Source: a virus
Strand: one strand, 5' to 3'
DNA: 60,376 bases
Virus record (IMG/VR): IMGVR_UViG_3300047470_000174
Location: 1-60,376 of that record
Under the pieces are notes generated by a model. That model was not told the origin of the DNA and made no database searches. It saw only the letters and a program-made list of their open reading frames with translations. Of this stretch, positions 3,859 through 60,194 are shown piece after piece. A program made the position numbers and the translations under genes. Positions within the stretch are counted from its first letter, which is position 1. Every line of letters begins with the position of its first letter.

Positions 3859-4215
3859 GTGGCACAGAGCATACTCACCAGTGTCAAGAAGATTCTCGGC
3901 ATAGCTGAGAGTGACACGTCGTTTGACGTGGATGTCATACTCCACACCAACTCCGTATTCTCGATTCTCACTCAGGTCGGAATCGGTCCTGACGACGGCT
4001 TCATGATCGAGGATGCCACTCCCACGTGGGACGCCTTCGTCACGGACAACAAACTGAATTCGGTGAAGACCTACGTCTATCTCCGGGTTCGTCTCCTGTT
4101 CGATCCACCGAACACGTCTTTCGTGATCGAGTCGATGGAGAAGCAGATCGAAGAACTCGAGTGGCGGCTCAATGTAGTCAGGGAGGCCGTCTCATGGACG
4201 GATCCCAACTTGTAA
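3859..4215 (+). CDS. Head-tail connector-like protein
   Basis: A 118-residue protein. The pattern of a helical N-terminus (ILTSVKKILGIAESDTSFDVDVILHTNSV), a middle segment ending in VKTYVYLRVRLLFDPP, and a C-terminal helix resembles gp6/gp15-type head-tail connectors of siphoviruses. GTG 3859 is chosen because AGGAGG (3845-3850) would overlap the earlier GTG at 3850. The gene overlaps the next one by 22 bases. The place before the large terminase, not after the capsid gene, is unusual, so the assignment is moderate. Confidence 0.55.
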   Translation: MAQSILTSVKKILGIAESDTSFDVDVILHTNSVFSILTQVGIGPDDGFMIEDATPTWDAFVTDNKLNSVKTYVYLRVRLLFDPPNTSFVIESMEKQIEELEWRLNVVREAVSWTDPNL

Positions 4216-5219
4216 TAGTTGCCCTCCCCTCTGCAGATGACTACGTACGACAAGTTTCGAGCGAAAAAGAACCGCACTTGACACTTCTATACCTGGGTGC
4301 CAACAAGTTCAGTCCTTCAGAACTCGAACATGTCACCGAGTACGTAGGGCATGCAGCCTCCATGCTCCCTCGGTTCTCTCTCAGTGTTGACAGCCGGGGC
4401 GAACTAGGTGACAAAAGCGCTGACGTTCTTTTCTTCAGTAAGCAGTGGTCGAAGAGTATCGAAACGTTCCGTTCTCACCTACTTCAAGATCCTCTCATCT
4501 CGGCAGCGTACTACTCGACCGATCAGTTCCCCGAGTGGAATCCACATCTGACTTTGGGTTTTCCTGGAACTCCGGCGAAGAAGCAACCTCAAGGTCAGTC
4601 GACGGTCTACTCTGTCGATTTCGACCGGATTGCTTTGTGGACGGGTGACTACACAGGTCCCACATTCCCGCTCAAATCCTATAACTATGGCATGGAGGTT
4701 GCAATGTCTCAGATCGAACTAGGCCGCTCTGCAGTGAGCAACGTCCTCGCTCACCATGGTGTGAAGGGTATGAAGTGGGGTGTCCACAAGTCCGAATCAA
4801 GCGGCGGTTCATCGGGCTCCACACCTAAGGCTTCTGCCGACGCCAAGTCTGCCGATTCAGCCCAGTCCAAGATCAACTCCGGTGGTACAAGAGCTCTCAG
4901 CAATCAGGAACTTCAGGGTCTCATCACCCGGATGAACCTGGAGCGTCAGTACCACACCATGACGACATCCAGTCAGAGTGATATCGACCGAGGTCTTCAA
5001 AACGCCCAGAAGATCCTCAAGGTTGGGGCAACCATCGAGAACGCTCGTAGGTTCGCAGCAACCCCCACCGGACAGGCCATCGTGAAGGGCCTCAAGGGCG
5101 CCTTCATCGCGGCCAAGGTAGGTGCTGCCGCCTATACGGGTGGCGGTTCTTCTGCGGCTGCTACGGGCACGGCTATCGCCGTCAAGTACGCGAAGAATCA
5201 CTACACCAACGGCAGGTAG
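4194..5219 (+). CDS. 2H phosphoesterase fused to a GMKWG-motif tail domain
   Basis: A 341-residue two-part protein. Residues 1-165 have the two HxT motifs of 2H phosphoesterases (LigT / 2'-5' RNA ligase / Acb1 superfamily): His28-Leu-Thr30 in HLTLLYLG and His118-Leu-Thr120 in HLTLGF. After residue ~170 comes a separate region beginning with HHGVKGMKWGV (187-197), a Ser/Gly/Ala-rich linker, and an Ala/Gly-rich C-terminus. The HHGVKGMKWG motif recurs in three genes just downstream. GGAGG at 4182-4186 sets ATG 4194. 2H enzymes cleave 2',5' or cyclic nucleotide bonds; the substrate here is unknown. An internal in-frame start (4704) could yield the C-terminal part alone. Confidence 0.75.
   Translation: MDGSQLVIVALPSADDYVRQVSSEKEPHLTLLYLGANKFSPSELEHVTEYVGHAASMLPRFSLSVDSRGELGDKSADVLFFSKQWSKSIETFRSHLLQDPLISAAYYSTDQFPEWNPHLTLGFPGTPAKKQPQGQSTVYSVDFDRIALWTGDYTGPTFPLKSYNYGMEVAMSQIELGRSAVSNVLAHHGVKGMKWGVHKSESSGGSSGSTPKASADAKSADSAQSKINSGGTRALSNQELQGLITRMNLERQYHTMTTSSQSDIDRGLQNAQKILKVGATIENARRFAATPTGQAIVKGLKGAFIAAKVGAAAYTGGGSSAAATGTAIAVKYAKNHYTNGR
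4694..4706 (+). promoter_or_regulatory. Internal ribosome site and ATG inside the 2H gene
   Basis: GGAGGTT at 4694-4700 is followed by an in-frame ATG at 4704. It lies exactly between the phosphoesterase part and the GMKWG part. Translation from here would give a ~171-residue protein (4704-5219) starting MSQIELGRSAVSNVLAHHG, similar in layout to the three separate GMKWG proteins downstream. Confidence 0.45.
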
Positions 5220-5234
5220 AAGGGAGGGTTAACG

Positions 5235-6980
5235 ATGGCTCTGTCGAACACGGCAACCCCCTACTACTACGGGAGGTTTCGTGACGCAGTGATGCGCGGT
5301 GATATCCCCGTCAATCGGGAGATCTCCCTGGAGATGAACCGCATCGACGCACTCATCAACAACCCGAACATCTACTACGATCCGGCGCCTGTTGAAGGGT
5401 TCGTTCTCTACTGCGAAGGCGAGCTTACGCTCACCGATGGTAGCGATCTGTATTTGCTCGATTCGTTCAAGCTGTGGGCAGAACAGATATTCTGCTGGTA
5501 CTACTTCGTCAACCGAAGTGTCTACGAACCGTCACCAGACAAACTTGGTGGTCGGTACGTTGACAAGGTGATCAAGAAGCGCCTGACAACCAAGCAGTAT
5601 CTGATCGTGGCTCGAGGTGCGGCCAAGTCTCTCTACGAGTCTTGTCTGCAGAGTTATTTCCTCAACATCGATGCGGCTACAACCCATCAGATCACCACAG
5701 CTCCGACGATGAAGCAAGCGGATGAAGTCATGTCTCCCGTACGGACTTCAATCATCCGAAGCCGTGGCCCCCTCTTCTCATTTCTTACTGAGGGTTCGCT
5801 TCAGAACACGACTGGTTCTAGGGCCAACCGAGTGAAGTTGGCGGCCACCAAGAAGGGCGTCGAGAACTTCCTCACTGGTTCGATGCTCGAAGTTCGCCCC
5901 ATGACCATCAACAAACTCCAGGGTCTCAGAACGAAGGTTGCCACTGTAGATGAGTGGCTTTCCGGAGATCTTCGAGAAGACGTCATTGGCGCGATCGAGC
6001 AGGGTGCTTCGAAGCTTGACGACTACCTAATCGTGGCTGTCAGTTCCGAGGGAACCGTTCGTAACGGCAGCGGTGACACAATCAAGCTGGAACTTCAAGA
6101 CATTCTAAAGGGCGAGTACAACGCCCCCCATGTCTCGATTTTTCACTACAAGCTTGACGAGCTGGAAGAGGTAGCCGACCCATCAATGTGGGTCAAGGCA
6201 AATCCCAACCTCGGAAAGACGGTGACGTATGACGTCTACCAACTCGATGTTGAACGAGCCGAGAAAGCCCCGGCTGCCAGGAATGACATCTTGGCTAAGC
6301 GCTTCGGGATCCCGATGGAGGGTTATACCTACTTCTTCACCTACGAAGAAACGCTACCTCATCCATATCGGGAATTCTGGGAGATGCCTTGTGCTCTGGG
6401 TGCAGACCTCTCCCAAGGTGACGACTTCTGTGCGTTCACTTTCCTCTTCCCTCTCCGTGACGGAAAGTTCGGAGTGAAGACCCGGAGCTACATCACTGAG
6501 TTGACTTTGATGAAGCTCCCGGGGGCTATGCGTCAGAAGTACGAAGAGTTCATTGGAGAAGAAAGTCTCCATGTCATGCCGGGGACAATCCTCGACATGA
6601 TAGAAGTCTTTGATGATCTGGATGCATTCATCCAGGAATCTGCCTATGATGTGCGCGCATTTGGCTTTGACCCGTACAACGCTAAGGAGTTCGTAGCCCG
6701 CTGGGAAGCGGAAAACGGTCCGCATGCCATCGAGAAAGTGATTCAGGGGGCGAGGACTGAGTCTGTCCCGCTTGGGGAACTCAAGGCTCTTAGTGGTCAA
6801 CGGCTTCTCATTTTTGATCAAGCACTCATGACATTTGCCATGGGCAACGCGATCACCATGGAAGACACCAACGGCAACCGGAAGCTTCTTAAGAAGCGGC
6901 AAGAAGCGAAGATCGACAACGTCGCCGCCCTGATGGACGCTTTCATAGCGTACAAGCTCCACAAGGAAGAGTTCGAATGA
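5235..6980 (+). CDS. terL: Terminase large subunit
   Basis: A 581-residue packaging motor. The ATPase half shows a Walker A-type RGAAKS (about 126-131), Walker B with catalytic acid in VATVDEW (about 235-241) and a coupling motif SSEG. The nuclease half shows acidic residues in GADLSQGDD (about 388), FGFDPYN (about 476) and the C-terminal MDAFIAYK. It cuts concatemeric DNA and pumps it through the portal encoded at 8.35 kb. The ribosome site AGGGAGGG precedes ATG 5235, and the stop overlaps the next start (ATGA). Confidence 0.92.
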   Translation: MALSNTATPYYYGRFRDAVMRGDIPVNREISLEMNRIDALINNPNIYYDPAPVEGFVLYCEGELTLTDGSDLYLLDSFKLWAEQIFCWYYFVNRSVYEPSPDKLGGRYVDKVIKKRLTTKQYLIVARGAAKSLYESCLQSYFLNIDAATTHQITTAPTMKQADEVMSPVRTSIIRSRGPLFSFLTEGSLQNTTGSRANRVKLAATKKGVENFLTGSMLEVRPMTINKLQGLRTKVATVDEWLSGDLREDVIGAIEQGASKLDDYLIVAVSSEGTVRNGSGDTIKLELQDILKGEYNAPHVSIFHYKLDELEEVADPSMWVKANPNLGKTVTYDVYQLDVERAEKAPAARNDILAKRFGIPMEGYTYFFTYEETLPHPYREFWEMPCALGADLSQGDDFCAFTFLFPLRDGKFGVKTRSYITELTLMKLPGAMRQKYEEFIGEESLHVMPGTILDMIEVFDDLDAFIQESAYDVRAFGFDPYNAKEFVARWEAENGPHAIEKVIQGARTESVPLGELKALSGQRLLIFDQALMTFAMGNAITMEDTNGNRKLLKKRQEAKIDNVAALMDAFIAYKLHKEEFE

Positions 6981-7342
6981 CACAGCAGACAACTCCGCCG
7001 GGTGAGCTTGTTCACTACGGCGTGAAGGGTATGAAGTGGGGTGTCCGGAAGGCTCGAACCGGAGACCTCAACACGCGGGCATCGCGTCTTGAGCGAGTTG
7101 CCAGCGGCAAGGGTTCACTCGCCGACAAGGTCGTTTCCCTCGGCGGGTCGAGTCTTCACAATCTGGCAGTGCAGAGAGGCTTGAAGAACGAGGCTGCTCG
7201 TCGAGCTGCCAACTACCGAGGCCAGATCGAACGCCTCTCAACGGGCAAGGCCAAGGTCAGCGACATTCTCAAGGCCTATGGGACCGTGAGCCTCGCAAGT
7301 CTGGCCGCCGCTGCCAACAAGAAGACCGACTATGTCCCCTAA
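6977..7342 (+). CDS. GMKWG-motif protein 2
   Basis: A 121-residue basic protein. It starts MTQQTTPPGELVHYGVKGMKWG, here written in two pieces: a 10-residue leader, then LVHYGVKGMKWGVRK (about 11-25). The rest is Lys/Arg/Ala-rich helix, followed by a small-residue C-terminus. The start overlaps the large-terminase stop by 4 bases. No enzyme domain is visible. Its position between terminase and portal, with two related proteins, suggests an internal head protein. The function is inferred only. Confidence 0.7.
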   Translation: MTQQTTPPGELVHYGVKGMKWGVRKARTGDLNTRASRLERVASGKGSLADKVVSLGGSSLHNLAVQRGLKNEAARRAANYRGQIERLSTGKAKVSDILKAYGTVSLASLAAAANKKTDYVP

Positions 7343-7751
7343 CCTCGTCCACTACGGTGTGAAGGGGATGCACTGGGGTGTCCGAAAGAACACTCCGACC
7401 CATTCCAGTTACACCAGCGGTCAGCAGGCCACTGACCGGCAGAAGCACGGACAGGCTGGAGTCAAGCGGATCAATCGCCGCTTGAACAAGGGCATGACTC
7501 TGGAGAAGGCTCGCAAGAGGGAGCGGTCGTACAAGACCAAGATCCGACTCGCTCTCATCGGTGCAGGTGTGGCTCACGACATGGCGAAGGTCTACGGCCC
7601 GGTTCTCGTCCAGACCATCGCTGTTCGAGCCGAAACCAACCGAGGTCGTGCTTCAGCGGCCGAAACTCTGGGACTTCCTCGAACGGGAACTTCAGGACCC
7701 ACTTACTCCAAGGCAAACCGTAAGGGCGCCTTCAAGATCACCAACCTTTAA
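7332..7751 (+). CDS. GMKWG-motif protein 3
   Basis: A 139-residue very basic protein beginning MSPNLVHYGVKGMHWGVRK; Lys in the motif is replaced by His. An Arg/Lys-rich helical region (about 45-75) is followed by a hydrophobic stretch (LALIGAGVAHDMAKVYGPVLVQTIAV) and a basic tail. It overlaps the previous gene by 11 bases. The high charge fits contact with packaged DNA. No enzymatic motif was found. Confidence 0.7.
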   Translation: MSPNLVHYGVKGMHWGVRKNTPTHSSYTSGQQATDRQKHGQAGVKRINRRLNKGMTLEKARKRERSYKTKIRLALIGAGVAHDMAKVYGPVLVQTIAVRAETNRGRASAAETLGLPRTGTSGPTYSKANRKGAFKITNL

Positions 7752-7765
7752 GGGAGGTCTCTTTC

Positions 7766-8317
7766 ATGTCAAAATGGGAGCAAACCTCCCCTGGTGAACT
7801 CATGCACTTCGGTGTGAAGGGCATGAAGTGGGGCGTCCGGCATGACGGTCCGACTGGTGTTTCTCGTAGCACCAACAACACCGCCAAGAAGGACGCGAAG
7901 GAGTTCGCCCGAGCCAAACAGTTCTTTGGTCAAGGTGCTGGCACTCGGCGCAAGCTGATCAAGGCCACTGTTGAGGGGCGAAGCAAGAAGGACCCCGCCT
8001 ACAAGAAGGCGTTCGATCATCATCTTGGCCAGCAGGACATGTCAGTCCACGCGGCTAAGGCTCGAAGCGAGCGCAAGCGCAAAGACGTCAAGAACAGCGC
8101 CGGTAGAGGCATCCGGGGAACTCGCCACATCCTCAACGGAAACTCACAGTACGCATCAGCGGCCACCGCAATCGTAGTTGGTGGTGCTCTGTATGCGCAC
8201 AAGACCGGCATCGACAAGACGATCTTCAACGCAGGGAAGAAGGCCTACTCTAAGGCCACCGACCCGAACGGCCATCAAGCTGCCAAGAAGTTTCTCCGAG
8301 ACATGGGGATCGGCTAG
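7766..8317 (+). CDS. GMKWG-motif protein 4
   Basis: A 183-residue basic protein with LMHFGVKGMKWGVRH at about 11-25, a long Lys/Arg-rich region, and a hydrophobic segment near 130-150 (SAATAIVVGGALYAHKTG) that could cross or contact a membrane. The start is ATG 7766 after AGGGAGG. The first codons contain a repeated 13-mer, GTCAAAATGGGAG (7768-7780). The basic character and location suggest an internal virion protein, possibly one that acts at the host membrane on entry. Confidence 0.7.
   Translation: MSKWEQTSPGELMHFGVKGMKWGVRHDGPTGVSRSTNNTAKKDAKEFARAKQFFGQGAGTRRKLIKATVEGRSKKDPAYKKAFDHHLGQQDMSVHAAKARSERKRKDVKNSAGRGIRGTRHILNGNSQYASAATAIVVGGALYAHKTGIDKTIFNAGKKAYSKATDPNGHQAAKKFLRDMGIG
7768..7780 (+). 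repeat. Repeated 13-mer GTCAAAATGGGAG, copy 1
   Basis: It covers codons 1-5 of the GMKWG protein 4 gene (reads M-S-K-W-E). Exact copies also at 9647, 13329 and 15801. Confidence 0.7.
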
Positions 8318-8350: not shown

Positions 8351-9634
8351 ATGGCAAACTTGTTTTCTCGTGTGTCTAAAAGTTTGAAGCACAGCTGGAA
8401 CGTCTTCACCGATCCGAACTACTTCGACAGTCTGCATAAGACCGGCGGCAGCAGTCTCGGATATTACAGTCCTCCTTCCCGAGGTAGGTCTTCGTATTCC
8501 AGTGAACGTTCTATCATCTCGTCGATCTACGTTCGGCTCGGCATAGATGTTTCTGGAGTTGACATTCGGCATGTCCGAACAGACGACGACGGTCGGTATC
8601 TCAACGATATCACAAGCGGACTTCAGGACTGTTTGACTGTAGACCCGAACCTCGACCAAGGCCCTCGACAGTTCCGTCAGGACATGGCGATGACGCTGTT
8701 CGAGAAAGGTCTAGCCGCTGTTGTTCCGGTTGAAACAGATCTCGACCCTAACGACACTGCTGGTTTCTCGATCCAGCAACTTCGCGTCGGCGAGATTGTG
8801 GGATGGCAGCCTCAGCATGTTCGCGTCAGCCTGTATGATCAGCGTAACGGTGAACGCAAGATAGTAACCGTTCCTAAGAGTCTGACGGCTATCATTGAGA
8901 ATCCTCTTTACTCAGTGATGAACGAACCGAGCTCCACACTTCAGCGTCTTATGCGGAAGCTCAACATGCTGGACGCAGTAGACGAGGCGTCCAGTTCGGG
9001 CAAGCTGAACATGATCATTCAGCTTCCTTATGTGGTCAAGAGTGATCTTCGACGTCAGCAGGCAGAACAGCGCCGCAAGGACATCGAGTTCCAGCTTACT
9101 GGCAGTAAGTATGGTATCGCCTACACAGACGGTACCGAGAAGATCACTCAGCTGAATCGTCCGGTCGACAACAACCTTCTTGAACAGATCAAGTACTTGA
9201 CCGACAAGCTCTACACAGAACTTGGTCTGACTCCGGAGGTTATGAACGGCACGGCCGACGAGAAGGTCATGCTGAACTACTTCGTCCGGACTATCGAGCC
9301 GGTGATCCAGGCGATCGCAGAGTCCATGAAGCGCACCTTCCTGACCAAGACGGCTCGGACTCAGAACCAGTCGATCATGTACTTCCGTGACCCGTTCAAG
9401 CTCGTCCCGATGGAAGTCATCGCTGAGATCGCGGACAAGTTCACACGGAACGAGATCTTGTCGGCGAACGAGATCCGTCAGGGGATCGGCTTCAAGCCTT
9501 CCAAGGACCCGAAGGCTGACCAACTGGTCAACAGCAACATGCCGCAGCCAGGAACCAACATGGGTCTTGGGGCAGCACCACCAACCACGCCGGAAACGGT
9601 TTCCGTCGGAGCTCAGAGCAAAACACTGAAGTAG
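8351..9634 (+). CDS. Portal protein
   Basis: A 427-residue portal of the HK97/SPP1-like kind. Supporting signs are the N-terminal IISSIYVRLGIDV helix, conserved FEKGLAAVVPVETD, a helical region with LTPEVMNGTADEKVMLNYFVRTIEPV (interface to the clip/stem), and a C-terminal Pro/Gly-rich tail. It forms the ring at the head vertex through which the terminase moves DNA. AAAGGAGG sits before ATG 8351. It is followed at once by the protease-capsid gene, the normal portal-protease-capsid order. Confidence 0.85.
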   Translation: MANLFSRVSKSLKHSWNVFTDPNYFDSLHKTGGSSLGYYSPPSRGRSSYSSERSIISSIYVRLGIDVSGVDIRHVRTDDDGRYLNDITSGLQDCLTVDPNLDQGPRQFRQDMAMTLFEKGLAAVVPVETDLDPNDTAGFSIQQLRVGEIVGWQPQHVRVSLYDQRNGERKIVTVPKSLTAIIENPLYSVMNEPSSTLQRLMRKLNMLDAVDEASSSGKLNMIIQLPYVVKSDLRRQQAEQRRKDIEFQLTGSKYGIAYTDGTEKITQLNRPVDNNLLEQIKYLTDKLYTELGLTPEVMNGTADEKVMLNYFVRTIEPVIQAIAESMKRTFLTKTARTQNQSIMYFRDPFKLVPMEVIAEIADKFTRNEILSANEIRQGIGFKPSKDPKADQLVNSNMPQPGTNMGLGAAPPTTPETVSVGAQSKTLK

Positions 9635-9646
9635 GGAAAGGAGACA

Positions 9647-9659
9647 GTCAAAATGGGAG
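9647..9659 (+). repeat. Repeated 13-mer, copy 2
   Basis: It spans the start codon of the protease-capsid gene (ATG at 9653). Confidence 0.7.
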
Positions 9660-11662
9660 TAATCGAAGCTGACTTCGGCGGCTGGGCCACAAAGGCTGGC
9701 CTCAAGTGCACCGACGGCCGAACCATCATGCCCGGCGCCTTCAAGCACATGCACCAGCAGCAGGTCCCGCTGGTGTTCCAGCACAGCCACAACGCGATCG
9801 AGAACGTTCTCGGTCACGCGATCCTCGAGCACCGTGAAGAGGGCATCTACGCCTACGCGTTCTTCAACGACACGCCCAAGGGTCAGCTCGCCAAGACCCA
9901 GGTCAAGCACCGCGACCTCAAGCACCTGTCGATCTACGCCAACAACCTGGTGGAGACGGCCAAGAAGGTGACCCACGGAAACATCCGTGAGGTGAGTCTG
10001 GTTCTCGCCGGCGCCAATCCGGGTGCGGTCATCGACTTCGTCAACCTCAAGCACGGCGACGGCTCGATCACCGAACTGGACGACGAGGCGATCCTCTACA
10101 CCGAGGAAGAGCTCGAGCACGCCCTCGACGAGATCGAAGAGGACGACACCGACGAGGATGACGATCTCGCCCACGCCTCCGCGGACATGACGGTCCAGGA
10201 CATCTACGACGGAATGTCCGAGGAAGAGCAGAACGTCGTGCACTACCTGATCGGTGCCGCTCTGGACTCGGTCACCTCCGCCGCGGCTCCTGCCGCCAAG
10301 CACTCCGACGACAACACCGCCGAGGGCGTCCTCGCCCACAAGGAAGGAGCCGACAACATGTCGCGCAACGTGTTCGACCAGAACGACGCCAACGAAGGCG
10401 AGCAGAAGAACGTGCTCAGCCACTCTGACGTCAAGGGCATCTTCGCCGACGCCGTCAAGTGCGGCTCCCTGAGGGAGGCGGCCCGTAACTACATCAACTC
10501 CCTCGAGCACGGCATCGAGAGCATCGACGTCCTGTTCCCGGACGCCAAGATGGCCACGGGCACCATCGACCTCGACAAGCGCCGGACCGAGTGGGTCACG
10601 ACCGTCCTCAACGGCACCCGTCACACCCCGTTCTCCCGCATCAAGACCTTCACGGCCGACCTGACCCAGGACGAGGCCCGTGCCAAGGGCTACATCAAGG
10701 GGAACTACAAGCTGGAAGAGTGGTTCGGCGTCAGCAAGCGGACCACCAGCCCCACCACGATCTACAAGAAGCAGAAGCTCGACCGTGACGACATGCTCGA
10801 CATCACGGACTTCGACATCGTCGCCTTCCTCAAGGCCGAGATGCGGCTCATGACCGAGGAGGAGATCGCCCGTGCGATCCTCATCGGCGACGGCCGTGCG
10901 GCGGACGACATCGACAAGGTCAAGGACCCGCTGGGTACCTCCGACGGCATCGGCATCCGCTCGATCGTGAACGACCACGAGCTCTTCGTCACCACTCTGC
11001 TGGTGAACGTCGACGACGCCAACTCGAGCTACGAGGAGGTCGTGGACGCCGTCATGGACGGCATGGAGTTCTACAAGGGCACCGGCACCCCGGTCTTCTA
11101 CACCACTATCCCGCAGCTCAACAAGTTCCTGAAGGCCAAGGACGAGATGGGCCGGCGTTACTACGCCAACAAGAGCGAGGTCGCTCAGGTCCTCGGCGTC
11201 AGCAACATCATCACCGTCGAGCCGATGAAGGAGATAGCCGACCTGATCGGCATCGTCGTCAACCTGGACGACTACAACATCGGCACCGACAATGGTGGCG
11301 AGCTGACGATGTTCGACGACTTCGACATCGACTACAACCAGCAGAAGTACCTGCTGGAAACCCGCATGTCGGGCGCTCTCGTCAAGCCGAAGTCCGCTCT
11401 GGTCATCAAGAAGACCGCTTCCGCCAACGTCCTGGTGACCCCGACCAAGCCGGCCTTCGTCGCGAGCACGGGTGTCGTCACGATCCCGACCGTCACCGGC
11501 GTGGTCTACAAGGGCAACGACGGCACCACCACCCTCACCGCGGGTGCTCAGACCGCTCTCGCGGCCGGCGCATCCACGACCGTCTACGCGGTCCCGGCGT
11601 CCGGGTACTACTTCGCCAACAACCAGGAAGACTCCTGGATGTTCAAGCGCAACGCCGCCTGA
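9653..11662 (+). CDS. Prohead protease-major capsid fusion, Ig-like C-terminus
   Basis: A 669-residue fusion. Residues ~1-150 are an HK97-type S78 prohead protease: His in VPLVFQHSHNAIENVLGHA and catalytic-Ser candidate in REVSLVLAGANPGA. An acidic, helical delta/scaffold-like part follows (about 150-260), then an HK97-fold capsid protein (about 260-580). The last ~70 residues form an Ig-like surface domain ([10 protein letters not shown]) also present in the tail-tube protein at 12.3 kb. Codon bias is stronger than in neighbouring genes, as expected for an abundant protein. An internal start at 10358 could make capsid without protease. Confidence 0.88.
   Translation: MGVIEADFGGWATKAGLKCTDGRTIMPGAFKHMHQQQVPLVFQHSHNAIENVLGHAILEHREEGIYAYAFFNDTPKGQLAKTQVKHRDLKHLSIYANNLVETAKKVTHGNIREVSLVLAGANPGAVIDFVNLKHGDGSITELDDEAILYTEEELEHALDEIEEDDTDEDDDLAHASADMTVQDIYDGMSEEEQNVVHYLIGAALDSVTSAAAPAAKHSDDNTAEGVLAHKEGADNMSRNVFDQNDANEGEQKNVLSHSDVKGIFADAVKCGSLREAARNYINSLEHGIESIDVLFPDAKMATGTIDLDKRRTEWVTTVLNGTRHTPFSRIKTFTADLTQDEARAKGYIKGNYKLEEWFGVSKRTTSPTTIYKKQKLDRDDMLDITDFDIVAFLKAEMRLMTEEEIARAILIGDGRAADDIDKVKDPLGTSDGIGIRSIVNDHELFVTTLLVNVDDANSSYEEVVDAVMDGMEFYKGTGTPVFYTTIPQLNKFLKAKDEMGRRYYANKSEVAQVLGVSNIITVEPMKEIADLIGIVVNLDDYNIGTDNGGELTMFDDFDIDYNQQKYLLETRMSGALVKPKSALVIKKTASANVLVTPTKPAFVASTGVVTIPTVTGVVYKGNDGTTTLTAGAQTALAAGASTTVYAVPASGYYFANNQEDSWMFKRNAA
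10344..10360 (+). promoter_or_regulatory. Internal ribosome site and ATG for free capsid protein
   Basis: AAGGAG at 10344-10349 is spaced 8 bases from an in-frame ATG at 10358, at the junction of the acidic protease tail and the capsid/delta region (MSRNVFDQNDANEGEQ). Translation from here gives a 434-residue capsid precursor, allowing more capsid than protease from one message. Confidence 0.5.
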
Positions 11663-56643: not shown

Positions 56644-57205
56644 CACCCATGCGAAGCTCGAAGGCTCACACGCCTTTCTAAGCCCCTCAAATCCTGCCTG
56701 GCTACGGTGGACTAAAGAGAGGCTAGAAGACCGTCTGACGACCGCTCAGGCGGCTGCACTGGGTACTGAGCTCCACGAGACCGCCGCCAGAAACATCAGA
56801 CGGCGCATCAAGCTCATGCCGGATGACGAATATCCGGTACTAGCGGCTTACGTGAACGACGCGATCGATCTACGGATGACGCCGGAACAGATGCTGTTCT
56901 ACTCGTTCAACTGTTACGGAACAGCTGACGCCATCTCGTTCGACGAAGTCAACATGTTCCTTCGGGTCCACGATCTTAAGACGGGCACCTCCAAAGCGTC
57001 CATGGATCAGCTGTATGTCTACGCCGCGATCTTCTGTCTGGAGTATGACTTCCGACCATTCGAGATCGAGGGTGAGCTTCGCATCTACCAAGGCGAAGTC
57101 ATCTACTGCGACATCGATCTCGAATACCTCGCGCACACCGTAGACATGATCTACACATCGGACAAGCGAATCGAAGAAAAGCGCCGAATGGGGGGTCTGT
57201 TTTGA
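56612..57205 (+). CDS. PD-(D/E)XK exonuclease (RecB/Cas4-like)
   Basis: A 197-residue nuclease. GTG 56612 is preferred because GAGGAAG lies 8 bases upstream; it overlaps the VRR-NUC gene by 32 bases. Motifs: GTADAI with metal Asp (about 105), HDLKTG with Asp-x-Lys (about 121-123), and a downstream QLYVYAA (Q-x3-Y) motif typical of RecB-family exonucleases. The SHAFLSPSNPAWL start is typical of the actinophage exonucleases. It probably trims DNA ends for recombination. Confidence 0.8.
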   Translation: MLYNARFSGFNTHAKLEGSHAFLSPSNPAWLRWTKERLEDRLTTAQAAALGTELHETAARNIRRRIKLMPDDEYPVLAAYVNDAIDLRMTPEQMLFYSFNCYGTADAISFDEVNMFLRVHDLKTGTSKASMDQLYVYAAIFCLEYDFRPFEIEGELRIYQGEVIYCDIDLEYLAHTVDMIYTSDKRIEEKRRMGGLF

Positions 57206-59946
57206 TCATCGATGAGGACGAGTACAACGCGCTTACTGGTGCGGTCGTCAAGGCAGACGATGATGTCGAGCACTACGGCATCAAGCGGAAGTCTGGACGT
57301 TACCCTTGGGGTTCGGGTGAAACACCCCACGAGCGTGCAGCTACCTTCCAGAGCAGTGTGAAGGACCTCCGAGCCCAAGGTGTGAAAGACACCGAGATCG
57401 CCAAGGGTTTCGGTCTGACAGTTTCACAGTTTCGCACCACCGTCGCAATGGCGAAGGAAGAGCGAAATCAGGCTCTGATCATCCAAGCTCAGCGTCTCCG
57501 AGACAAGGGTCTTTCCAACGTCGCTATCGGGCAGAAGATGGGAATCCCCGACACTACAGTCGGAAATCTCCTCAAGCCGGGTCGTAAGGACAAGGAAAAC
57601 GTTCTTGCTGCCACTTCCGAGATGCTCCGTGCTCAGGTCGACGCAAAGAAGTATGTCGATGTTGGTAAGGGCGTCGAGCTTCACTTGGGGATCAGTGCTG
57701 AGAAGCTCAGGGACGCCAGACGTCTTCTCGAAGACGAAGGCTATGTTCTTCACCGGCTCACCGTCGAACAGCTTGGAACCGGTAAAAACACCTCCCTGAA
57801 GGTTCTTACGGCTCCTGGTACGACCTTCCAAGAGGTCTTGAAGAACCGGGAACTGATCCAGCCGGCCATGCTCAAGTCGACTGACGGAGGTCGTAGCTAC
57901 GACCGCATCGAGCCCCCCATCTCGATCAGCTCCAAGCGAGTTAAGATTCGCTACGCTGAAGAAGGTGGTACCGATGCTGACGGTGTGATCTACGTTCGTC
58001 CTGGCGTGAACGACGTAGCGCTCGGCAAGGGACGTTATGCTCAGGTGCGTGTTGCTGTAGATGGCACACATTACCTCAAGGGCATGGCGATGTATGGCGA
58101 TCCGAAGGACTTCCCTCCTGGTGTTGATCTCGTTTTCAACACGAACAAGAAGAACACCGGGAACAAGCTCGATGCGATGAAACCGATGCAGAAGGACAAT
58201 CTGACGGGAGAGATCTCGAAGGACGATCCTTTCGGTTCCAACATTCGCGATCAGGTCTACAAGAAGCATCCTGACGGAACAGACGTCAGAGACGAACACG
58301 GGAACCGCGTTGTCGAGTCGACGATGAATATCGTCAACGAAGAAGGTAAATGGGACCAGTGGTCCCGAAACCTTTCGTCTCAGATGTTGTCGAAACAAAA
58401 GCCTGCCCTGGCGAAGAACCAACTCGACATGGCCTACGAAAGCAAACTTCGTGAGCTTGACGAGATCAGAGCGACTACCAACGACACTGTCAAGAAACAT
58501 CTTCTAGAGAAGTTTGCCGATTCGGCAGATTCTTCGGCGGTCCATCTCAAGGCCGCACAGATGCCCCGACAGGCGACAAAAGTCATACTACCCATCAACT
58601 CGATGAAGGAAAACGAGGTCTACGCACCTACCTTCAACGACGGTGAGCAAGTAGTCCTGGTTCGCTTTCCTCATGGTGGGAAGTTCGAGATCCCCCAACT
58701 CAGGGTAAACAACCGTCACCCTGAGGCGAAGAAACTTCTGGGCAATGCTCCTGACGCGATCGGCATCCACAGCAAGGTAGCCGAACGACTGTCTGGTGCG
58801 GACTTCGATGGCGACACTGTACTGGTCATCCCTAACAATCATGGGAAGATCCAGACATCGCCGGCTCTCGAAGGTCTGAAGGGTTTCGACCCACAGAAGT
58901 ACAAGATTCCTGCCGATAGTCCGATCCCTCGGATGAACGCCAAAACCAAAGCCATGCAAATGGGCCTCGTGTCAAACCTCATCACCGACATGACCATCAA
59001 GGGCGCGCCCGATGATGAGCTTGCTCGGGCTGTCCGCCATTCAATGGTGGTCATCGATGCTGAGAAGCACGGTCTCAACTGGAAACAGTCGGCCCAGGAC
59101 AATACCATCTCGCAGCTCATGAAGAAGTACCAGAGAGGCCCGCAAGGTGGCGCTTCGACTCTCATCTCTCTGGCTAGTTCTGAAAAGACAGTTCCAGACC
59201 GGAAGCCTCGCCCTGCTGATGAAGGCGGTCCTATCGATCGTCTTACGGGTAAGCGCGTCTATGTAGAGACGGGCAAAGAGTACTACAACGGCAAGCAGAA
59301 AACCGTTAAGATTGAGAAGCTCGCTCTCACCGACGACGCGCACTCTCTCTCTTCAGGCAGGCCGATCGAACACGTCTACGCTGAGTACTCAAACAAGCTC
59401 AAGGCCTTGGCCAACATGTCTCGTAAAGAGATGCTTGAGACCAAGGACATTGAGTACTCTCCGCGCGCTAACAAAGCGTATGCGGAGGAAGTGAAGATGC
59501 TTCAGGCTAACCTGAACAATGCTCTTCGTAACGCCCCCCTCGAACGACAGGCCCAGGTGATTGCAAATGCCCGGTTCCGTCTCAAGAAGGAGGCGAATCC
59601 TGAGATGGATAAAGCTGAGATCAAGAAGCTGAAATCCAAAGAACTTGAGGATGCCCGTAGAAGAGTAGGTGCAGGCAAGGATCTGGTCACGATTGAACCC
59701 AAGGAATGGGAAGCCATCCAAGCGGGCGCGATCACCAAGACCATGCTCAACAAGATCCTTGACAACGCTGACGTGGAGAAGATCAAGAAGCTGGCCACAC
59801 CGAGAGAGAAGCCAGCTATGAACGAAGCTGATCTTAGTCGTGCCAGACTCATGCTCATCGGAGACAAGCACACCTTGGCTGAGGTAGCTAATCAGCTTGG
59901 TGTCTCTGTTGACACGCTCAAGTCTGCCATTGCAGGTGATTCGTGA
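57202..59946 (+). CDS. Putative virion RNA polymerase (DFDGD double-psi barrel)
   Basis: A 914-residue protein. Residues 534-538 are DFDGD in RLSGADFDGDTVLVIPN, the catalytic loop of multi-subunit and YonO-like RNA polymerases (beta' NADFDGD). The preceding strand VLVRFPHGGKFEI matches beta' R-P-x-x-L-H surroundings. The N-terminus has HYGIKRKSGRYPWGSGE (24-40), related to the GMKWG motif, then two helix-turn-helix units (about 50-75, 92-118). A WDQWSRNLSSQML block lies near 370-385. The start is TTG 57202, overlapping the nuclease stop. It may be packaged and injected. The polymerase call is inferred from the motif. Confidence 0.65.
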   Translation: MIIDEDEYNALTGAVVKADDDVEHYGIKRKSGRYPWGSGETPHERAATFQSSVKDLRAQGVKDTEIAKGFGLTVSQFRTTVAMAKEERNQALIIQAQRLRDKGLSNVAIGQKMGIPDTTVGNLLKPGRKDKENVLAATSEMLRAQVDAKKYVDVGKGVELHLGISAEKLRDARRLLEDEGYVLHRLTVEQLGTGKNTSLKVLTAPGTTFQEVLKNRELIQPAMLKSTDGGRSYDRIEPPISISSKRVKIRYAEEGGTDADGVIYVRPGVNDVALGKGRYAQVRVAVDGTHYLKGMAMYGDPKDFPPGVDLVFNTNKKNTGNKLDAMKPMQKDNLTGEISKDDPFGSNIRDQVYKKHPDGTDVRDEHGNRVVESTMNIVNEEGKWDQWSRNLSSQMLSKQKPALAKNQLDMAYESKLRELDEIRATTNDTVKKHLLEKFADSADSSAVHLKAAQMPRQATKVILPINSMKENEVYAPTFNDGEQVVLVRFPHGGKFEIPQLRVNNRHPEAKKLLGNAPDAIGIHSKVAERLSGADFDGDTVLVIPNNHGKIQTSPALEGLKGFDPQKYKIPADSPIPRMNAKTKAMQMGLVSNLITDMTIKGAPDDELARAVRHSMVVIDAEKHGLNWKQSAQDNTISQLMKKYQRGPQGGASTLISLASSEKTVPDRKPRPADEGGPIDRLTGKRVYVETGKEYYNGKQKTVKIEKLALTDDAHSLSSGRPIEHVYAEYSNKLKALANMSRKEMLETKDIEYSPRANKAYAEEVKMLQANLNNALRNAPLERQAQVIANARFRLKKEANPEMDKAEIKKLKSKELEDARRRVGAGKDLVTIEPKEWEAIQAGAITKTMLNKILDNADVEKIKKLATPREKPAMNEADLSRARLMLIGDKHTLAEVANQLGVSVDTLKSAIAGDS

Positions 59947-60194
59947 TGTCTACGGAACACATGCTCAGTACCAAGGACAACCCGTACAACCCTTGGTCTG
60001 AATGGGACCAGTGGTACGAATGGGATGCGCAAGAGGGCTACCACTCTCTATCCCTCCTTGCCCGTGTAGTACGAACATCTGATGAACTCAGCGACCAACT
60101 GCAGAGTCAAGCCATTGAGGACGCGATCGAAGAGATCGTTACCGAGAATGTGTCAGGTGTTCACATCAAGGTAGCTGATCCATCAAACGGTTAG
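59946..60194 (+). CDS. Conserved small phage protein next to the RNA polymerase
   Basis: An 82-residue protein with NPYNPWSEWDQWYEWDAQEGYH (here split: NPYNPWSEWDQWYEWD, AQEGYH) and LLARVVRTSDELSD. The NPYN-P-x-x-x-WDxWY opening is found in small proteins that follow the same polymerase-like gene and precede large terminase in other phages; that is from memory, not a search. ATG 59946 overlaps the polymerase stop. Confidence 0.65.
   Translation: MSTEHMLSTKDNPYNPWSEWDQWYEWDAQEGYHSLSLLARVVRTSDELSDQLQSQAIEDAIEEIVTENVSGVHIKVADPSNG

Follow-up and report, generated by a model that had tools for sequence, protein, structure and literature searches.

The tag and its carriers in the window

The window analysed here is the whole stretch of a virus record, 60,376 nt in length, and its kin are the Streptomyces phages Rima, Bing and Scarif. 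It encodes four head-module proteins that share a short motif, which we call the tag, and an RNA polymerase (RNAP) that carries a related leader. These features, together with the neighbouring head genes, are as follows.

4194..5219, plus strand: 2H (LigT-like) phosphoesterase domain (residues 1-164) followed by the tag (residues 187-197) and a helical C-terminal tail; a cargo candidate
4752..4784, plus strand: tag HHGVKGMKWGV, internal, residues 187-197 of the 341-residue 2H protein
5235..6980, plus strand: terminase large subunit, a context marker (Pfam TerL_nuclease, E 1.6e-33)
6977..7342, plus strand: basic tagged protein of 121 residues (DUF7211 E 1.8e-12; phrog_17496; +0.107 charge per residue)
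7013..7045, plus strand: tag HYGVKGMKWGV, N-terminal, in the 6977..7342 protein
7332..7751, plus strand: basic tagged protein of 139 residues (DUF7211 E 1e-10; phrog_34327; +0.151 charge per residue)
7350..7382, plus strand: tag HYGVKGMHWGV, N-terminal, in the 7332..7751 protein
7766..8317, plus strand: basic tagged protein of 183 residues (DUF7211 E 4.4e-11; phrog_6291; +0.126 charge per residue)
7805..7837, plus strand: tag HFGVKGMKWGV, N-terminal, in the 7766..8317 protein
8351..9634, plus strand: portal protein, a context marker (Pfam Phage_portal, E 4.7e-17)
9653..11662, plus strand: prohead protease fused to the major capsid protein (Pfam Peptidase_S78 and Phage_capsid; phrog_3270)
57202..59946, plus strand: RNAP, a cargo candidate (phrog_4291, E 0; AF2; Foldseek)
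57271..57318, plus strand: polymerase-type leader HYGIKRKSGRYPWGSG (leader-blind relatives; predicted disorder)

A six-frame scan of the window recovered all five sites exactly where the initial annotation had placed them, and found no copies beyond the four motif sites and the RNAP leader. With a relaxed form of the motif about 5e-5 copies are expected by chance, compared with the four that are present. The motif is that of Pfam PF23847 (DUF7211), a 25-residue family whose function is unassigned in Pfam. The four head-module proteins match this family with 41-47 bits (E 1e-10 to 2e-12), the gathering cut-off being 27 bits. A literature search for GMKWG or DUF7211 found no relevant paper, and PADLOC returned no match. 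The capsid protein of the window contains the string LSHSDVKGIF, a weak likeness to the motif that we dismissed; it is absent from the homologue in L181. The carriers had also been described as mostly basic. This is strongly so for the three small proteins, with +0.11 to +0.15 charge per residue, but the 2H protein and the RNAP reach only about +0.02.

The 2H protein matches both Pfam 2_5_RNA_ligase2 (E 1.3e-7) and DUF7211 (E 9.9e-12), and its model matches a LigT-like phosphoesterase (Foldseek E 7.5e-8). The traits of the 2H superfamily are present, i.e. H28-x-T30 and H118-x-T120, which are invariant, and a predicted LigT fold. In the AF2 model, which rests on a shallow alignment, the 2H domain is confident, and residues 165-212, with the tag inside them, have a pLDDT below 50. 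Among the many 2H enzymes matched by the model is the anti-CBASS nuclease Acb1, to which the fold similarity is weak, and a PDB sequence search with the 2H protein gave nothing useful. A helix of the form LSNxELQxLxxRLxLExQY follows the tag in, e.g. the 2H protein itself (window 4194-5219), L102, L117 and L121.

Modular carriers and exchangeable leaders

In order to find further carriers, IMG/VR was scanned by degenerate codons for GVKGMKWG and GRYPWGSG, and the matches listed include 287 environmental carriers. By the similarity of their bodies, these 287 carriers among the matches listed fall into 111 clusters, 91 of them single. This is the trait that characterizes capsid targeting of the T4 type, one short signal on otherwise diverse proteins, here in 111 body clusters among the matches listed. 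The Pfam bodies of the cargo include GNAT, papain-fold Gln deamidase, ADP-ribosyltransferase, AAA, DUF6883 and 2H domains. Bodies without apparent relation may nonetheless be homologues that have diverged rapidly. The motif lies within 60 residues of the start in 224 of the 253 complete GMKWG-type ORFs among the matches listed; in many of those where it lies beyond residue 60, it stands directly behind a 2H domain. Carrier bodies among the matches listed are net positive in 98% of cases (median +0.09 per residue), compared with 33% of the genes of phage 1706. Two further carriers, in L099 and L102, have two tags, and together with the protein at L094:1854-3455 (2H phosphoesterase, tag, GNAT, tag and a conserved tail) they are natural fusions of tagged cargo. 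A role as transmembrane or pilot proteins was considered as well. Hydrophobic segments outnumber those of shuffled sequences but are no more frequent than in the control ORFs, some of which are spurious, and this role was rejected.

The leader of the RNAP can be found on proteins that are not polymerases. A 361-residue protein encoded between terminase and portal in L181 carries the polymerase-type leader ELAHFGIAKRSGRYPWGSG, and non-RNAP proteins with an RNAP-type leader lie within the head modules of both L148 and L181. Small proteins with leaders resembling HYGVGHxxGGHSGRYPWGSG occur in L148, L264, L268, L272, L276, L283, L296, L302 and L303, and some small proteins of the RYPWGSG type have GNAT or deamidase bodies. 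A good example of exchange is a pair of near-identical bodies with different leaders, L148:717-1175, which starts MNDLYIMHYNKNHDPSTGRFTWGS, and L272:4980-5459, which starts MNNLYIMHSGVAHDENPPGRGSGRYAWGS. Furthermore, in L269 an RYPWGSG leader is joined to YxNKDGSL, an element normally found behind GMKWGVRR. Judged by these sequences, the GMKWG-type motif and the RNAP leader are exchangeable modules, and the RNAP leader is the same kind of element as the GMKWG-type tag and is not specific to polymerases. A third leader-like form, HYNxNHDPxTGRF, is seen on small proteins of L307-L310 and L148; in L148 its bearer lies beside RYPWGSG-type carriers, and the protein of L310 has a weak GNAT match.

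The position of the carriers was determined by mapping the terminase, portal and capsid genes on the loci. Among the 287 carriers in the matches listed, 135 are found upstream of TerL at a distance of up to about 3 kb, 105 are encoded between TerL and portal, and 3 between portal and capsid; none lies downstream of the capsid gene, which is present in 64 loci, and 17 are on a locus without any head marker. Rhodococcus phage ReqiPepy6 illustrates the slot well, as gp13 and each of gp15-gp21 are tagged, gp14 being TerL and gp22 the portal protein. Such strict placement around terminase and portal would be expected if the motif served assembly, with the carriers as helpers in head assembly, or as scaffold-like proteins, that bind to the portal, terminase or capsid through it and whose ejection would not be required. 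Some carriers also share more than the tag: the helix behind it recurs in 38 of the 287 carriers among the matches listed and in 0 of 2170 control ORFs. That said, the leader is also borne by the RNAP and by effector-like enzymes with no evident assembly role, and the number and kind of carriers vary freely, from 1 to 8 tagged proteins per phage. We regard a pure assembly motif as unlikely.

The initial annotation had offered, as an alternative to sorting, that the prohead protease processes the motif, i.e. that cleavage by the capsid-fused protease takes place there. The fusion is always present in this lineage, internal copies lie at domain boundaries (as in the 2H-tag-GNAT-tag protein of L094), and protease processing of the T4 tag is named in the title of a cited reference. 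However, the protease-capsid fusion of the window, the expected main substrate, has no motif, and the motif can be internal or in tandem. The long conserved core of aromatic residues and glycines is unlike a simple cleavage site, and two leader forms with different cores occupy the same slot. We regard a processing site as very unlikely.

The RNA polymerase and its linkage to the tag

The protein encoded at 57202 is a single-chain RNAP, with a DFDGD motif that is invariant in 31 relatives. Its AF2 model (mean pLDDT 80.8) matches QDE-1 with a Foldseek E-value of 9e-10 at a low global TM-score (~0.3), and RNAPs of the phage P23-45 type with an E-value of 2e-7. The DxDGD catalytic motif and the modelled two-barrel fold are the traits of two-barrel single-chain RNAPs (QDE-1/YonO-like). 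Helix-turn-helix-like segments lie near both ends of the protein (57202-59946), at about residues 94-129 and 870-907, and might serve in promoter recognition; in actinophages the RNAP is usually annotated as a ‘helix-turn-helix DNA-binding protein’ only. A small ORF (59943-60194) is found directly 3′ of the RNAP gene, the position that is held by orf76 in phage 1706 and gp107 in ReqiPepy6. Several matches among the RNAP records, including G010, G022 and G026, are flagged for one stop codon within the matched stretch.

Residues 24-40 of the 57202 protein read HYGIKRKSGRYPWGSGE. This leader had been called a diverged motif, and it is indeed a related form, but a distinct one and not simply a decayed copy. 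The window RNAP has no DUF7211 match in Pfam, and on the DUF7211 profile the N-terminal half of some other RNAP leaders scores weakly, with no more than 15-19 bits at about profile positions 2-13. The invariance of GRYPWGSG in our alignment A2 is partly circular, since the loci were selected by it, and we therefore used a set of 40 RNAPs chosen without regard to the leader. All 40 have it, 37 in canonical form and 3 as recognisable variants. In the AF2 model of the window RNAP the sole long stretch of low confidence is residues 12-35, spanning most of the leader. A leader that is conserved and predicted to be disordered, on a polymerase predicted to be folded elsewhere, would fit a docking or binding motif.

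How closely are tag and polymerase linked? The host distributions of the RNAP, the tag and the protease-capsid fusion are nearly identical across 50,697 phage records. A search for co-occurrence of carriers with fused protease-capsid genes had been proposed; the lineage always has the fusion. Carriers, RNAP and fusion mark one phage lineage, so the co-occurrence of tag and RNAP is confounded by descent. We rejected co-occurrence in the phage collection as the decisive link, as it mostly reflects lineage, and used the exchange of leaders and a less biased sample instead, 341 bacterial genomes from the class of G134. In this sample DUF7211 above the cut-off and a true RNAP are found in the same 3 of 341 genomes, one of which is the seed; with the seed excluded, they are found in the same 2 of 340 genomes (p 1.7e-5). 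In 3/3 genomes that hold both, the RNAP is found on the same strand as the carriers, at 2-4 kb upstream of them. The window has its RNAP at the right end and its carriers at the left end, and joining the two ends would give the order of RNAP then carriers that is seen in the three bacterial genomes.

Other comparisons are in line with this linkage. Of the 28 carrier records with a length of 40 kb or more, 25 have an RNAP match (the match in G014 is weak), and a full RNAP is present in 22 of 31 bacterial genomes with a genuine tag, against 0 of 5 with chance matches to the pattern. In a few phage records of 44-57 kb with an RNAP, recognisable carriers were not found. Tight co-occurrence of this kind could also arise if the motif served, after entry, to attach proteins to the phage RNAP, to DNA or to a host factor. 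We consider this highly improbable, because the RNAP carries the motif itself and the location of the carriers in the head module would go unexplained.

Phage 1706 of Lactococcus, a distant member with an RNAP 41% identical to that of the window, may provide a link to the virion. It has only two tagged genes (EU081845): orf7, with two GMKWG-type tags, adjoins the terminase, and the RNAP gene, orf75, lies at the far end. Both are labelled ‘structural protein’ in the original GenBank entry, in which the depositors used this label for 11 of the 76 genes; the chance of both tagged genes bearing it is about 0.02. In the RefSeq version orf75 has been renamed ‘RNA-dependent RNA polymerase’. The depositors of ReqiPepy6 repeat the structural note for gp19 and gp106, homologues of 1706 proteins. 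The label is probably based on proteomics, as the structural cluster does not include orf62, orf71 and orf75; Garneau et al. (2008) reportedly carried out mass spectrometry on phage 1706. These third-party labels would place one GMKWG-type protein and the RNAP in the virion of 1706.

A proposed docking signal for head cargo and its known analogues

The modularity of the tag, its slot, the interchange of leaders and the linkage to the RNAP are established at the level of sequence. In our judgement the motif probably serves as a docking signal by which cargo is loaded into the prohead and later delivered together with the DNA. The sorting tag suggested in the initial annotation, as distinct from the protease site, is favoured by the modularity, the synteny, the RNAP linkage, the leader exchange and the 1706 labels. 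We infer a packaging signal, and delivery into the cell, as follows. Several interchangeable forms (LxH[HYF]G[VI]KGMKWG[VIK]R and LxHYG(x)nSGRYPWGSG) would mark proteins made late, which would dock on a component of the prohead and be trapped inside ahead of DNA filling. Since the RNAP gene stands in front of the head genes in prophages, the RNAP would be made with the head proteins. The cargo would comprise small basic proteins, effector-like enzymes (the 2H phosphoesterase, GNAT acetyltransferases, a deamidase and others) and a virion RNAP. On infection, the cargo would enter the cell alongside the DNA; the injected RNAP would start the transcription of phage genes and the enzymes would disarm or reprogram the host.

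It is also conceivable that the tagged proteins are merely paralogues whose bodies diverged or were replaced, and whose N-terminus was retained without a sorting role. All tagged genes belong to one phage lineage, and neighbouring paralogues are common. On the other hand, no part of the small carriers is as well conserved as the leader, which is also kept on the polymerase, on enzymes of known unrelated folds, internally and in tandem. Such conservation across unrelated folds and positions implies a function, and we give common ancestry by itself very little credence.

On what might a docking signal dock? The linker of the protease-capsid fusion, residues 130-230 (window 10040-10342), is acidic, with a net charge of -27 and a helix TVQDIYDGMSEEEQNVVHYLIGAAL; among the matches listed, an acidic linker with this helix is found only in the capsid fusions of this lineage. 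As a guess, this linker is a hypothetical receptor for the tag. More broadly, and with less assurance than for the docking signal itself, we lean towards a general cargo-sorting code in a large phage lineage of Actinobacteria and Firmicutes, in which leaders load the RNAP and swappable host-directed enzymes. If interchangeable leaders load cargo in this way, any gene that acquires a leader would become injected cargo.

If the docking signal is real, it would provide a function for Pfam DUF7211 and account for the entry of a phage-encoded polymerase into the cell in a lineage that is widespread. The motif could then be used to find injected phage effectors, from 2H phosphoesterases, acetyltransferases and deamidases to a large number of unknown proteins. 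With a short capsid-loading tag that is portable, the sorting of head cargo would become directly testable in phages of Streptomyces, Arthrobacter, Gordonia and Lactococcus. If confirmed, the tag would be a capsid-loading signal with a virion polymerase among its cargo. DUF7211 itself describes the same motif in its GMKWG form; the RYPWGSG leader scores far below the cut-off, and the family proposes no function.

By analogy, the closest counterparts of the tag would be the capsid-targeting sequence of T4 and the signal of P1 DarB. The T4 sequence is found on the internal proteins IPI-III and is enough to load foreign proteins into the prohead core (PMC3012670, PMC9024508). Like the tag, it is short and common to otherwise diverse proteins, which are host-directed and internal to the head in T4 and would be so here. 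The tag differs in that it is also internal or in tandem, has interchangeable forms and is also on the RNAP; the phages that bear it have a protease-capsid fusion, and no sequence relation to T4 is claimed. In P1, a 30-residue N-terminal signal directs the large antirestriction protein DarB to the capsid (PMC9024508). A capsid-directing N-terminus would be alike, whereas the P1 signal serves a single protein and phage and sequence are unrelated.

Polymerases in virions and injected effectors have their own precedents. Phage P23-45 and the crAss-like phage phi14:2 carry a single-chain two-barrel RNAP in the virion (PMC10770324). The window RNAP matches this fold superfamily, its virion presence in the present lineage being indicated by the depositors' 1706 label only. 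In P23-45 the RNAP is fused to the tape measure protein, whereas the RNAP described here is a protein of its own that bears a short tag. MuF-type or polyvalent head proteins are predicted to bring effector domains such as 2H phosphoesterases into the host (PMC5512222, PMC3482391), and 2H domains fused to MuF or portal domains are predicted to be injected (PMC5512222). Those systems deliver by fusion to a MuF or portal domain, whereas the carriers described here would be delivered by a motif of ~11-20 residues.
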